Below, piece after piece: positions 6,363 to 21,816 of a stretch of 64,000 bases of DNA (position 1 is its first letter; each line of letters begins with the position of its first letter). The stretch covers positions 3,071,623 through 3,135,622 of the forward strand of contig OY282444.1 in the NCBI GenBank assembly GCA_958296125.1, read 5' to 3'. The notes beneath the pieces are model-generated. The model saw only the letters and a list, made by a program, of their open reading frames with translations. It was not told the origin of the DNA and searched no databases. A program made the translations under genes and the position numbers. The DNA comes from an uncultured Poribacteria bacterium. GTDB taxonomy: Bacteria; Poribacteria; WGA-4E; PCPOR2b.

Positions 6363-7397
6363 CTATCCTTTCTCGACTCCAACAGGTGTCTCCGAAACCG
6401 GCATCTGACGGACATAGTTGACGAGCGGTGCCCCCATCCCATCAAAGCGGATTTCAACCTCATCCCCAGTTTGATAGGTCGGTCGATCTGGGAAAGAGAG
6501 TTTCATCGTTCCGAAGTAGTGTAGATGCACATCGCCGGGAATCCGAAAGTGGGGATACTTGAAGTGGTGGTCTTCAAGATTGGCAAGGGTGTGGCTCATG
6601 TGCGCTTCGCCCGTGAGCAGATCGCCGGAATGATAGATTTCCGTCGCTTCCCGCACAATGCGGCAACTGCCTCGAACATCTGTGAATGACTCATCGGTTA
6701 CTAACTCGGGCCCAACAGCGCAAACGCGCATTTTCGAGAGAGCGAGCCACAGATAATTCACACGCTCCATAGGGTGGTCCGCCCACTCGTTGCCGATTGT
6801 AAAACCGAGCCGACAGGGAATCCCATCGTCGTCAATGACATAGCAACCGACGATTTCCGGTTCCTCACCGCCATCTTCTGCAAAGTCGGGGATATCTAGA
6901 AAGTCGTTGTGTCCCCGTAGGATTGTCCCGTTCCCTTTATAGAACCATTCGGGTTGAGTCCCCCGCTTGCCGGGTGCTGGTTTGCCACCTTTTAACCCCA
7001 TCTCAAACATCTTCTGGGAATCTGTCTTTGTCGCCTCGCTGGTGTCAGCAATTGTGTGCATCTGATCACGCGCTTCCATGCTGCCGAGGTGGGTTAGCCC
7101 TGTCCCAGAAACCGTGCAGTGGGCTGGGTCCGGATGGTCAAGTGGGGGCAAGATCCAGCCGCTTGCATCCCCCGCCCGGCCGGTTAGCAGTTGATTATAC
7201 AACACCCGATCTGCGGTTTCAGTGGGGGTCGCGGCAAGGTACGCGCCGATCGTCCTCCCCCTTCTGCGAGCTTCAAGGAAGAGGGAATAAATCTGCGTCC
7301 ACTCCATGTTGACACCGGTCAAGTCTACTACATGCTCACCATCAATGTACCCGATTCGTCTTCCCTTTTCTGGCAACTGAAATTGAATCAATCTCAT
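6363..7397 (-). CDS. Fumarylacetoacetate hydrolase-family protein (AraD1-like)
   Basis: 344 residues with a GAGGGAGA ribosome site. The N-terminal segment MRLIQFQLPEKGRRIGYI and the downstream VSGTGLTHLGS, GNGTILRGHNDFLDIP and RLGFTIGNEWADH blocks match the AraD1 branch of the FAH superfamily. Characterised relatives act on 2-keto-3-deoxy sugar acids or other beta-diketo acids with Mg2+. The acidic metal-binding cluster appears to be EEPEIVGCYVIDDDG near 180-195. The substrate here is not known. With the nearby enolase-superfamily and SDR genes, sugar-acid breakdown is plausible. The gene is convergent with the FGE-fold gene. Confidence 0.85.
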   Translation of the reverse strand: MRLIQFQLPEKGRRIGYIDGEHVVDLTGVNMEWTQIYSLFLEARRRGRTIGAYLAATPTETADRVLYNQLLTGRAGDASGWILPPLDHPDPAHCTVSGTGLTHLGSMEARDQMHTIADTSEATKTDSQKMFEMGLKGGKPAPGKRGTQPEWFYKGNGTILRGHNDFLDIPDFAEDGGEEPEIVGCYVIDDDGIPCRLGFTIGNEWADHPMERVNYLWLALSKMRVCAVGPELVTDESFTDVRGSCRIVREATEIYHSGDLLTGEAHMSHTLANLEDHHFKYPHFRIPGDVHLHYFGTMKLSFPDRPTYQTGDEVEIRFDGMGAPLVNYVRQMPVSETPVGVEKG

Positions 7398-7436
7398 AAT
7401 TTTTGTCTCCCTCTAAGGAACCCCCTTGTTTGCCCT

Positions 7437-17406: not shown

Positions 17407-18039
17407 ATGAGGAACCTACTGAATAAATTAAAATCAAAGCAATCCCAGACTGAGCAAGATTCCGCGCTACTTACGGTCACCGAGGCAGCGACGCAGAAGA
17501 TTCAATCGGTAATTGAAGACCAAGGGTTGGAGGTTGAAGGGCTGCGAGTTAGCATCAGCGGTCGCTCCGCATCAGCGTTTGAGTATGGGTTGGGCCTCGA
17601 AGTTGAACCCGAACCAGATGATGTCGTAGTTGACTGTGGCGAATTCAAGGTTTTTATCGATCCGGAAAGCGCGGAAAATCTGAAGGGAGCAACCGTTGAT
17701 TATGTAGAAGACCTAAATTCGAGCGGTTTTAAGATTGATAACCCGAACGCACCCACTTGGGATAACCCTAAAGCCCAAGCAATTCAGCAGCTCATTGACG
17801 AACGGATTAATCCTGCGGTTGCGGCGCACGGTGGGCAAATCGATCTGCTGGACGTTACAGATGATTCGATCTACATCCACATGGGGGGCGGCTGCCAAGG
17901 GTGCGGGATGGCAAATGCCACCTTGAAGCACGGAATCGAAGGGATGATTCAAGAACACTTCCCCGAAATTACGAATATTATCGACACCACCGACCACGCG
18001 GCCGGCGCGAATCCCTACTACCAACCGAGCAAGGGTTAA
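17407..18039 (+). CDS. NfuA-type Fe-S carrier (degenerate HesB domain + NifU C-terminal domain)
   Basis: 210 residues with AAGGAG upstream. The first half (about 20-110) has the A-type HesB/IscA fold (LLTVTEAATQKIQSVIED, VDCGEFKVFIDPESAENLKGATVDYV) but lacks the three scaffold Cys, as in NfuA. The second half is a NifU C-terminal domain (about 120-195) with the cluster-binding CxxC in GGGCQGCGMANATLKHGIE. NfuA proteins carry a 4Fe-4S cluster and deliver it to apo-enzymes under oxidative or iron stress. Its link to the upstream sigma factor, and to the divergent SufR-like regulator, suggests a shared Fe-S response. Confidence 0.9.
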   Translation: MRNLLNKLKSKQSQTEQDSALLTVTEAATQKIQSVIEDQGLEVEGLRVSISGRSASAFEYGLGLEVEPEPDDVVVDCGEFKVFIDPESAENLKGATVDYVEDLNSSGFKIDNPNAPTWDNPKAQAIQQLIDERINPAVAAHGGQIDLLDVTDDSIYIHMGGGCQGCGMANATLKHGIEGMIQEHFPEITNIIDTTDHAAGANPYYQPSKG

Positions 18040-18209
18040 AAGCTGTGAAATTCAACGCCACACCTGTAGGTCGGGCATCCCCGATAAATCAAATTACCGA
18101 AATAGGGTGATGAGATCTGTCACATTTATCATCGGCTTGGATATGTCTATCCACAGTAAGCGGGGACATTAACATTTATCTGACGGAGGACTAGTAGCAT
18201 TGGTCCTTT

Positions 18210-18241
18210 AGGGGCAGCCTGATGAGTCTGCCCCTTTTTTC
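18210..18241 (+). terminator. Rho-independent terminator or attenuator
   Basis: AGGGGCAG (18210-18217) pairs with CTGCCCCT (18228-18235) around a 10-base loop, followed directly by a run of T to 18240. It closes the nfuA transcript. It ends only 19 bases before the ATG of the radical SAM selenoprotein, so any transcript reaching that gene from upstream must pass it. Confidence 0.8.
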
Positions 18242-18259
18242 TCGAAGGTCAAATTGATT

Positions 18260-19753
18260 ATGAAACGTCCAGGGGCAATATTACTCATTTCCTGTTACGA
18301 ACTTGGGCATCAGCCGATCGGTCTTGCTTCCCCGGTTGGGTTTCTTGAGCGTGCAGGATATACGCCGGACGTGATGGACATCGCTGTTGAAAACCTAGAC
18401 GTGGAAAAAGCCGCCCGTGCAGAATTTGTTGGGATTTGTGTGCCGATGCACACCGCCCTCCGTTTAGGTGTCCATGTAGCCGCCCGACTTCGCGAAATTA
18501 ACCCCACCTGCCATATCTGCTTCTACGGACTCTACGCCTCGCTGAACGCTGAATACTTGCTCCAACATCACGCCAACTCAGTCATCGGCGGCGAATATGA
18601 GATGCTGCTGGTCGAATTGGTTGACTCGCTTACAGATGGGACGCATATTGAGATAACGGGTGTCCTCCGACGCGAGGATGCCGAATCACTTCACGATAGA
18701 CCTCAGCCCAAGCCTTTCTTGAAATACCTCCCCTTTGGGACCAGCGAAACCCTCCCCGTACCAAGCCGTAAGCGACTACCACCACTCGATAGGTATGCAC
18801 ATCTCGAACAAGATGGGGTCGCGCACCTCGCCGGTTATGTAGAGGCTAGCCGTGGTTGCAAACATCTCTGTCTCCACTGCCCTATCCCCCCAGTTTATGA
18901 GGGCAAATTCTCCGTCGTGCCAAAGGAGGTTGTGCTCGAGGATATTCGGACTCAAGTTGAAGCTGGTGCGGCTCACATCACATTCGGCGATCCCGATTTC
19001 CTTAATGGACCCAAACACGCGCTTCGCATTGTTCAAGCCATGCACGAAGCGTTTCCCAATCTGACCTTCGACTGCACAACCAAAATTGAGCACCTCCTGA
19101 AGCACCGTTCCATCCTCCCTGAACTCCGCGACTGCGGTTGTATCTTTATCGTTTCCGCCGTTGAGTCGCTCAACGACACGGTACTTGGAAACCTTCAGAA
19201 AGGACATACACGCGCCGACGTTTTTGCTGTCATCAAGCTTTTGAGGGCGGTTGGGATTACCCTTCGTCCCTCGCTTGTTCCGTTCACACCGTGGGAGACC
19301 CTGGATAGTTATCTGTATATCCTTGACTCTGTTGAAAGCCAAGAACTAATTGACCACATCGATCCGGTGCAGTACACGATTCGGTTGCTTATTCCACCGG
19401 GATCTTCCTTGCTCTCCCAGCCATCTATCCAACCCTACCTTGGGGGACTCGATCAAGAATCCTTTACCTATCGTTGGATCCACGCCGATCCACGCATGGA
19501 CGAACTCCACAAAGCGGTCAGCGTCGCCGTAGAGAGTGCATCACAGATTGGTGAGGAGCCAGTTGTTACCTTCCATCGGGTGCGTAACCTTGCCTATGCC
19601 GCAATCGGTAGAGAGGAATCTTCCATCGTGTTCCCATTGGATTTTGAATCTGATCGAAAGCGACCGCCGCGCCTGACTGAAGATTGGTTCTGCTGAGCGG
19701 AGCCAACACAAGGTCAGTTGGGCCCGCTCGGTGAAAGCGATTTACGCCATTAG
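18260..19753 (+). CDS. CUAEP-tail radical SAM selenoprotein (TGA at 19694-19696 read as selenocysteine)
   Basis: A conventional reading stops at 19696 after Trp-Phe-Cys. If TGA is selenocysteine the frame continues Ala-Glu-Pro and ends at TAG 19751-19753, giving 497 residues with Cys478-Sec479. The order C-U-A-E-P is the tail of a named family of radical SAM selenoproteins and Cys homologues. ATG 18260 is chosen over TTG 18254 because it fits the GAAGG site better. An N-terminal B12-binding-like domain covers about 1-140. The radical SAM cluster motif CxxxCxxC is in SRGCKHLCLHCP near 198-210. A hairpin after the TGA acts as the probable SECIS. The 3' end overlaps the convergent pepP stop by 12 bases. 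The reaction is unknown. The selenium machinery is not in this window. Confidence 0.85.
19695..19729 (+). promoter_or_regulatory. Bacterial SECIS-like hairpin
   Basis: The stem starts one base into the TGA: GAGCGG (19695-19700) pairs with CCGCTC (19724-19729). GCCAAC (19702-19707) then pairs with GTTGG(G)C (19717-19723), with an A and a G bulged. The loop at 19708-19716 contains AAGGTCA. The E. coli fdhF SECIS also presents GGUC in its loop for SelB. The TGA-to-loop distance of about 16 bases suits a bacterial element. Confidence 0.75.
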
Positions 19754-21031
19754 CCTCTCAATCTCATCAATCGTTTTCGGTACGGCTGCGGTCAGAACTT
19801 CACAGCCGGACTCGGTGACCAGAATATTGTCCTCAATCCGCACACCGATTCCCAGATACTCCGATGGCACGTTTTCGATGTCGGGATCAATGTAAAGCCC
19901 CGGTTCAACAGTCATCACCATTCCCGGTTGGAAGATTTTGTATTCTTCTCCCTCCCGTGTCTTTGCCACGTCGTGAACCTCCACACCCAGCATGTGTCCG
20001 ACACTGTGCATGTAAAACTTTCTATATTCCTTTTCCTCAATTATCTTCTCTTTCTCTCCGACCAATAGACCTAGTTTCAGCATCGCTTCAGTCAACATCT
20101 CTACCGCCTTCTGAACGGGATCACCAATCGAAACGCCGGGACGAATGCTTGCGATAATCTCACACTCGACATCGAGCACCGATTGGTAGACTGCACGTTG
20201 AGCCTCCGTAAACTTCCCATTGGCGGGGAATGTTCGCGTTATATCGCCGCAATAGTACTGGTATTCACACCCTGCATCAATGAGTACCAAATCGCCATCT
20301 TGGATCTGGCAGTCGTTTGCCGTATAGTGAAGCGTCGTTGCGTTTGCACCCTTTGCTACAATCGTGAGAAATGCGGAACCTGTGCCACCGTTTTTCCGAT
20401 AGATTGAGTCGATCAAGCTTTCCAATTCATATTCATACATGCCGGGTCGGACCGCCTGCATCGCTGCCGTATGTGCTTCAACACTGATGTCTACCGCTTT
20501 GCGTATCCGTCCGAGTTCTAATTCATCTTTGACGAGACGCATCTCGGCAAGGATTTCGGTGGGGTCAATTAAGATAGTTGGGCCCGTTCCCTCGCGCAAG
20601 CGATGCCGCCTATATTGCTTGAGGAGTTCAATAACCTTCTCATTAAAGGCTTCGTCCGCGCCGAACCCGTAGTAGAGCCGCTCCGATGTCCCAATATATT
20701 CGGAAATCTTTTCGTCAAATTCCTCGATGGGATAAGCTTCATCTGCGCCAAAGTGTTCTTTTGCGCCTTTGACACCGGCGCGCTTTCCAGTCCATACCTC
20801 CTGTTCAGGAGCGCGGGGACGAACGAATAGAACATACTGATGTTCAGGGTGATCTGGGGCAAGCACGCAAACTGCGTCCGGTTCCTCAAAGCCGGTTAGA
20901 TAGTAGAAATTGGCATCTTGACGGTATCTATATTCGGTCGAGTGCGTACGCATTGCCGGCAATGCGCTCGGAAAAATCGCAACACCTCCCGCTATTTTTT
21001 TCATAAATGCCTTACGTCTGTTTTCGTGCAT
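19742..21031 (-). CDS. pepP: Xaa-Pro aminopeptidase (M24B)
   Basis: 429 residues. The N-terminal creatinase-like domain (about 1-160) carries YRQDANFYYLTGFEEPDAV; the C-terminal pita-bread metallopeptidase domain is at about 170-420. The five metal ligands are visible: Asp in VLIDAGCEY, Asp in YCGDITRTFP, His in HSVGHMLGVEVHD, Glu in TVEPGLYID and Glu in GVRIEDNILVT. The enzyme removes N-terminal residues before proline, using two Mn ions, in the cytoplasm. AAGGAG precedes the ATG. The gene is convergent with the selenoprotein gene and overlaps its extended end. Confidence 0.94.
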   Translation of the reverse strand: MHENRRKAFMKKIAGGVAIFPSALPAMRTHSTEYRYRQDANFYYLTGFEEPDAVCVLAPDHPEHQYVLFVRPRAPEQEVWTGKRAGVKGAKEHFGADEAYPIEEFDEKISEYIGTSERLYYGFGADEAFNEKVIELLKQYRRHRLREGTGPTILIDPTEILAEMRLVKDELELGRIRKAVDISVEAHTAAMQAVRPGMYEYELESLIDSIYRKNGGTGSAFLTIVAKGANATTLHYTANDCQIQDGDLVLIDAGCEYQYYCGDITRTFPANGKFTEAQRAVYQSVLDVECEIIASIRPGVSIGDPVQKAVEMLTEAMLKLGLLVGEKEKIIEEKEYRKFYMHSVGHMLGVEVHDVAKTREGEEYKIFQPGMVMTVEPGLYIDPDIENVPSEYLGIGVRIEDNILVTESGCEVLTAAVPKTIDEIERLMA

Positions 21032-21252: not shown

Positions 21253-21816
21253 ATGAAAATCTATACCAAAACTGGAGACACCGGCGAGACAGGACTCTAC
21301 AGTGGGACACGGGTGCCTAAAGATGCGAGGCGCGTTGAGGTTTGCGGAACGGTTGACGAACTCAACGCCTGCATCGGGTTCGTGAAATCACAGATTCAGG
21401 ACGAGGAAATCAACGCAATCCTCCACCGTATCCAAAACGAGCTCTTTGACATCGGGGCAGATCTCGCAACGCTGGAGGCACACCCGAAAGCGGTGGGTCT
21501 GAGAATCCCGCCAACCCTGACCACCGAATTAGAAAGAAACATTGACCGATTTCACGATCAACTCCCGCCGCTGAAAAATTTCATTCTGCCCGGTGGTTCA
21601 GCCGGTGGCGCAGCAATCCACTTCGCCCGAACTGTTGCCCGTCGTGCTGAGCGGTGCGTTGTCAGCCTTGCCAAAGCAGAGCCGGTGAATCCAGAAGTGC
21701 TTATTTACATGAACAGGCTCTCCGATCTCCTATTCGTGCTCGCCCGCTTGGTCAATCACCGGTCGGGTGAACCGGAGCCACTTTGGGAGTCTCAAACAGA
21801 ACCCCCACAATTTTAG
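21253..21816 (+). CDS. ATP:cob(I)alamin adenosyltransferase, PduO type
   Basis: 187 residues, full length. The signature KIYTKTGDTGETGLYSGTRVPKDARRVE at the N-terminus is the ATP-binding region. The C-terminal helices contain PGGSAGGAAIHFARTVARRAER, the cobalamin-side motif, and YMNRLSDLLFVLAR. The enzyme transfers the adenosyl group of ATP to cob(I)alamin, making coenzyme B12. No B12 synthesis gene is adjacent. The radical SAM protein 1.5 kb upstream has a B12-binding-like domain, but such enzymes usually use methylcobalamin, so the link is weak. Confidence 0.94.
   Translation: MKIYTKTGDTGETGLYSGTRVPKDARRVEVCGTVDELNACIGFVKSQIQDEEINAILHRIQNELFDIGADLATLEAHPKAVGLRIPPTLTTELERNIDRFHDQLPPLKNFILPGGSAGGAAIHFARTVARRAERCVVSLAKAEPVNPEVLIYMNRLSDLLFVLARLVNHRSGEPEPLWESQTEPPQF

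Follow-up and report, generated by a model that had tools for sequence, protein, structure and literature searches.

Does a TGA codon at position 19694 end the radical SAM gene in which it lies, or is it decoded as selenocysteine (Sec), and what would an enzyme with such a tail do? The question is raised by a stretch of 64,000 nucleotides from an uncultured Poribacteria bacterium (GenBank assembly GCA_958296125.1, contig OY282444.1), hereafter the window. On its forward strand, a frame opens with ATG at 18260 and runs to Trp-Phe-Cys, the TGA (19694-19696), Ala-Glu-Pro, 15 further residues and a TAG at 19751-19753, just as a sequence-only reading of this DNA had described.

A radical SAM protein of a named family

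When the protein is read through the UGA, it matches the NCBIfam profile NF040546 (CUAEP/CCAEP-tail radical SAM (seleno)protein) with 692.2 bits (cut-off 500) along positions 1-467 of 468, and also PF04055 (Radical_SAM, 49.9 bits; cut-off 29.5). The comparison of body and extension with the CUAEP/CCAEP-tail families, proposed along with the sequence-only reading, thus gives a match that runs through the tail, and the tail of the window protein, WFCUAEPT, fits the C-U/C-A-E-P tail of NF040546. The nearest named records are Candidatus Poribacteria MAGs (74-85% identity over the best segment). With a full-length match above the cut-off, the same tail and the same alternation of Sec and Cys, nothing sets the protein outside NF040546; the gene is a new member of an already named family and not a new family. 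A literature search retrieved no publication that names the CUAEP/CCAEP family or gives it a function. As to identity rather than chemistry, the gene very probably encodes a selenoprotein of this family, to judge from its sequence.

The sequence-only reading had also pointed to a CxxxCxxC cluster motif and a B12-binding-like N-terminus. The former is present as CKHLCLHC (C200/C204/C207); the latter is recognizable, but its PF02310 score (27.8 bits) lies below the cut-off of 32.1. Across 59 homologues Cys87, Cys200, Cys204, Cys207 and Cys478 are invariant, and residue 479 is either Sec or Cys (residue numbers are those of the full-length protein; numbering in the alignment, whose start was trimmed, is 38 lower). 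A search of the window protein for a second canonical Fe-S cluster motif found none. The AlphaFold2 model is a confident one (pLDDT 87.9, with 72-80 in the tail blocks; pTM 0.89) and finds its best fold match in AprD4 (PDB 6fd2, TM 0.65/0.71), with OxsB, TsrM and MgmA as further matches. The window protein is predicted to fold like the two-domain enzymes that join a cobalamin-binding-like to a radical SAM domain, such as AprD4, OxsB and TsrM. AprD4, a radical SAM diol dehydratase, is a sequence match as well, but at only 18-20% identity, and we know of no Cys-Sec tail in it.

Table 1. Features of the CUAEP locus, in window coordinates
Feature	Position	Strand	Remarks
NfuA-like gene (A-type and NifU domains)	17407..18039	+	PF01106 83 bits; PF01521 53 bits
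Terminator-like hairpin, GGGGCAG...CTGCCCC and T run	18211..18240	+	From sequence and fold; between the nfuA-like and CUAEP genes
CUAEP-tail radical SAM gene, predicted selenoprotein	18260..19753	+	497 aa with predicted Sec479; NF040546 and Radical_SAM PF04055
Cys87, in the B12-binding-like domain	18518..18520	+	Invariant in 59/59 family homologues
CxxxCxxC [4Fe-4S]/SAM motif, C200-C204-C207	18857..18880	+	Invariant in 59/59 aligned homologues and in alignment A2
Tail pair Cys478-Sec479 (predicted), TGC TGA	19691..19696	+	Preceding Cys invariant; Sec codon TGA in 61 and TGC in 4 of 65 loci, some of them duplicates
Alternative hairpin of the sequence-only reading	19694..19730	+	Lowest in energy in the window, but not conserved
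Tail, predicted to be translated: A-E-P and TQGQLGPLGESDLRH	19697..19750	+	AEP in 44/45 distinct TGA sequences; E-P-T in 45/45
Site of the conserved hairpin resembling a bacterial SECIS	19709..19727	+	Covariation; stem 19709-19715/19721-19727
Cobalamin adenosyltransferase gene	21253-21816		1.5 kb downstream of the CUAEP gene; kept in four congeners

Decoding of the UGA

The window genome (5.16 Mb, one contig) carries selB, selA and tRNA-Sec side by side, and also selD, so that all four genes which the sequence-only reading suggested looking for are there. The selD match (L110, G000:C1:1302552-1303472) itself holds one in-frame TGA; Sec-containing SelD is already known. NF040546 scores over its cut-off in 42 of 59 relatives, a count that includes the window's own genome, and each match has one in-frame TGA. 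Homologues with a cysteine codon in its place, which the sequence-only reading had also suggested looking for, were found as well: TGC stands at the Sec codon in four loci (L058, L060, L080 and L084) of the 65 with a readable tail. A tree built from the protein body calls for three changes between TGA and TGC at this position. selA is missing in three of the four TGC genomes, and it is found over the cut-off in 14 of the 16 TGA genomes tested across phyla; the two without a full selA (L054 and L068) are both MAGs and may be incomplete. A fifth Cys form, in a Deltaproteobacteria MAG whose genome has selA (L082, about 6700-7400), carries a frameshift before its CCAEP tail.

The simplest alternative would be that the UGA is a plain stop, with the downstream Ala-Glu-Pro being decayed or chance sequence. 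Annotation pipelines do end there, and truncation by normal gene calling had been foreseen: in Thermomicrobium roseum the CDS is named CUAEP/CCAEP, but ends at the TGA. Against a stop stand the 45 distinct TGA contexts: all have Trp-Phe-Cys and, past the UGA, Glu-Pro-Thr, and 44 retain the Ala, whilst the third codon positions vary; residues that hardly change while third positions do so point to a tail that is translated. The four homologues with TGC keep the same tail, and the window genome has the Sec genes. Neither of the outcomes named beforehand as speaking against Sec, namely a genome without selA, selB and selC or homologues all ending at the TGA without an extension, was encountered. 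A plain stop is thus highly improbable, and, as far as sequence comparison can tell, the gene product is almost certainly a selenoprotein. On the T. roseum plasmid, the CDS (L105:5953-7389) is annotated up to the Cys before the TGA, and the DNA continues TGA GCG GAG CCG; no selA was found on the plasmid itself.

Where the insertion signal lies is a separate matter. The sequence-only reading had placed it in a hairpin beginning in the TGA and showing GGUC in its loop, and the RNA of 19694-19740 does reach its lowest energy in this hairpin (-19.4 kcal/mol, a value as good in 1 of 200 shuffles); in a few congeners, too, it comes close to the best fold. As a conserved SECIS, however, it was rejected, since its covariation over 26 sequences is only at shuffle level. 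It is a different hairpin, at 19709-19727, that covaries instead: in alignment A1 its stem (columns 16-22 and 28-34) has 26 double-change cells where shuffles give 8.4 ± 2.2, and its covariation score of 0.423 (0.182 for shuffles) is not attained in any of 500 shuffles. The stem was picked by inspecting the same sequences, so the percentage paired is biased upward and more weight rests on the double changes. Nitrospinota sequences were left out of this alignment because their stem closes one base earlier, giving a four-base loop, and one clade has a GGAAA loop instead of AGUUN. The conserved hairpin is absent in all four TGC homologues. In the window, what is left of it is weak, with 4 bp (19712-19715/19721-19724, one of them G-U), the loop AGUUG at 19716-19720 and -4.0 kcal/mol, and it stands beside the stronger alternative fold. 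Rfam scans of 19500-20000 and of 17950-18300 returned no SECIS or riboswitch family. Sec479 would be inserted by SelB with Sec-tRNA binding to the covarying hairpin, a putative SECIS located where a bacterial SECIS belongs.

Fe-S and iron genes beside the CUAEP genes

Directly upstream of the CUAEP gene lies an NfuA-like gene, the only NifU-domain gene of the window genome (one PF01106 match in 5.16 Mb), which has one further A-type gene. This arrangement recurs: of 38 genome-contig loci, 31 have an NfuA, A-type or YggX gene immediately next to the CUAEP gene and on its strand, a tally that counts related genomes more than once. The neighbour is an NfuA-like gene in Poribacteria, Methylomirabilota, Planctomycetota, Rokubacteria, a deltaproteobacterium and a Dehalococcoidia MAG. 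In Nitrospinota and Tectomicrobia, the gene of an A-type carrier precedes the CUAEP gene by about 104-138 bases, and in Latescibacterota, Gemmatimonadota, one Chloroflexi and one Proteobacteria MAG the gene immediately before it is that of YggX (PF04362). A few congeners have another gene between carrier and CUAEP gene. In L049, L051 and L052, an additional open frame, about 230-280 aa long and missing in the window, lies between the nfuA-like and CUAEP genes. In three more of the 38 loci the CUAEP gene is followed directly by DUF169 (PF02596), which also holds for most loci of another Poribacteria family, and a literature search yielded nothing that links DUF169 with radical SAM. The last four either have truncated flanks or lack any such gene, and the T. 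roseum and Troglogloeales loci show no recognised Fe-S neighbour. In L054, a class V aminotransferase and another frame lie upstream of the CUAEP gene, which we read as SufS-like and SufD-like, respectively.

That different carriers occupy the same slot across phyla suggests that cluster supply is what is kept, and we lean towards the Fe-S carrier being a functional partner of the CUAEP enzyme. From the literature searched, this neighbourhood appears to be undescribed. It is nevertheless to be borne in mind that the nfuA-like and CUAEP genes of the window may not be co-transcribed, since a terminator-like hairpin separates them, about 20 bases ahead of the CUAEP ATG; attenuation is a possible role for it. 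A pattern scan did not list this hairpin. Similar ones are found in L049, L051 and L052, and, with a different sequence, in the Nitrospinota-type loci L063 and L072, where they likewise separate carrier and CUAEP gene.

Candidate chemistries of the enzyme

The cluster held by C200, C204 and C207 would bring about the reductive cleavage of SAM, and at the active site the Cys478-Sec479 pair of the C-terminus may serve as a soft ligand or as a redox pair. The radical SAM reaction would draw on a dedicated Fe-S supply from NfuA, from A-type carriers or from YggX-type iron handling, as the neighbours indicate, and the most likely biological setting, read from these same genes, is a reaction that needs such a supply. 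A more specific version is put forward tentatively: the Sec-dependent enzyme would be a dedicated client or member of Fe-S delivery, its Cys-Sec tail binding a cluster, iron or a soft element and being resupplied by NfuA, the A-type carrier or YggX. To our knowledge, resupply chemistry at a Cys-Sec tail of this kind has not been described for any selenoprotein.

Another possibility, to be held equally loosely, is that the enzyme is ArsL-like: the Cys-Sec tail would hold arsenic or another soft element, and the 3-amino-3-carboxypropyl group of SAM would be transferred to it. ArsL (NF040542, arsinothricin biosynthesis), which converts As(III) to AST-OH (PMC8552651), is the nearest characterised relative, at 31-37% identity over about 83%, and shares with the window protein the domain order, the CxxxCxxC motif and a cysteine-rich C-terminus. 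But the ArsL tail, RCCLKC, is absent from the window protein, whose C-terminal region is longer, and the NF040542 score of 325 bits stays below the cut-off of 450. Cys87, for its part, is not invariant in ArsL-type proteins. ATP-grasp genes occur near both ArsL-type and CUAEP genes; since the proteins are only about 25% identical, however, they are weak proof of a shared pathway. For the CUAEP genes, these neighbours are LAL_C2-type ATP-grasp ligase genes (in L054, L056, L058, L068, L080 and L084), and others lie near RCCLKC-tail genes on plasmids. The gene context differs as well, with ArsL-type genes lying among arsR, arsM and aquaporin genes and the CUAEP genes among Fe-S genes. An arsenic function by context was rejected: no ars gene was recognised in the annotated part of the CUAEP flanking genes.

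Somewhat less probable is a radical SAM enzyme in which an auxiliary Fe-S cluster would be used or rebuilt on Cys87 and the Cys-Sec tail and, as in lipoyl synthase, resupplied by NfuA or an A-type carrier. Such a reading would account for the Fe-S carriers adjoining the CUAEP genes and for the invariance of Cys87, Cys478 and Sec/Cys479 beside the radical SAM cysteines, and lipoyl synthase and MiaB, themselves radical SAM enzymes, are likewise associated with such a carrier, NfuA. In humans NfuA has a counterpart, NFU1, which is reported to support the activity of lipoyl synthase in vitro (PMC9585516). What speaks against it is the lack of a second canonical cluster motif in the window protein, together with its low sequence similarity to lipoyl synthase and MiaB. 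Sacrificial or auxiliary cluster chemistry in the CUAEP enzyme, taken as a conclusion by itself, is likewise rather doubtful.

Finally, a radical SAM methyltransferase that depends on cobalamin, like OxsB or TsrM, would agree in domain order and fold, and in the window's genus a cobalamin adenosyltransferase gene lies close by. Yet this neighbour is confined to the genus, the closest fold, AprD4, is that of a dehydratase, and the B12-binding Pfam score is below its cut-off; a methyltransferase is thus unlikely. Cobalamin dependence of the CUAEP enzyme was not retained, the B12-binding domain being sub-threshold.

Covariation moves the putative SECIS from where the sequence-only reading had put it, and a functional lead comes from genes for Fe-S carriers or iron trafficking, which adjoin CUAEP genes in many phyla. 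Thermomicrobium roseum DSM 5159 is a named strain with a TGA-type gene and, as Sec and Cys versions of the enzyme both exist, the role of Sec is directly testable.
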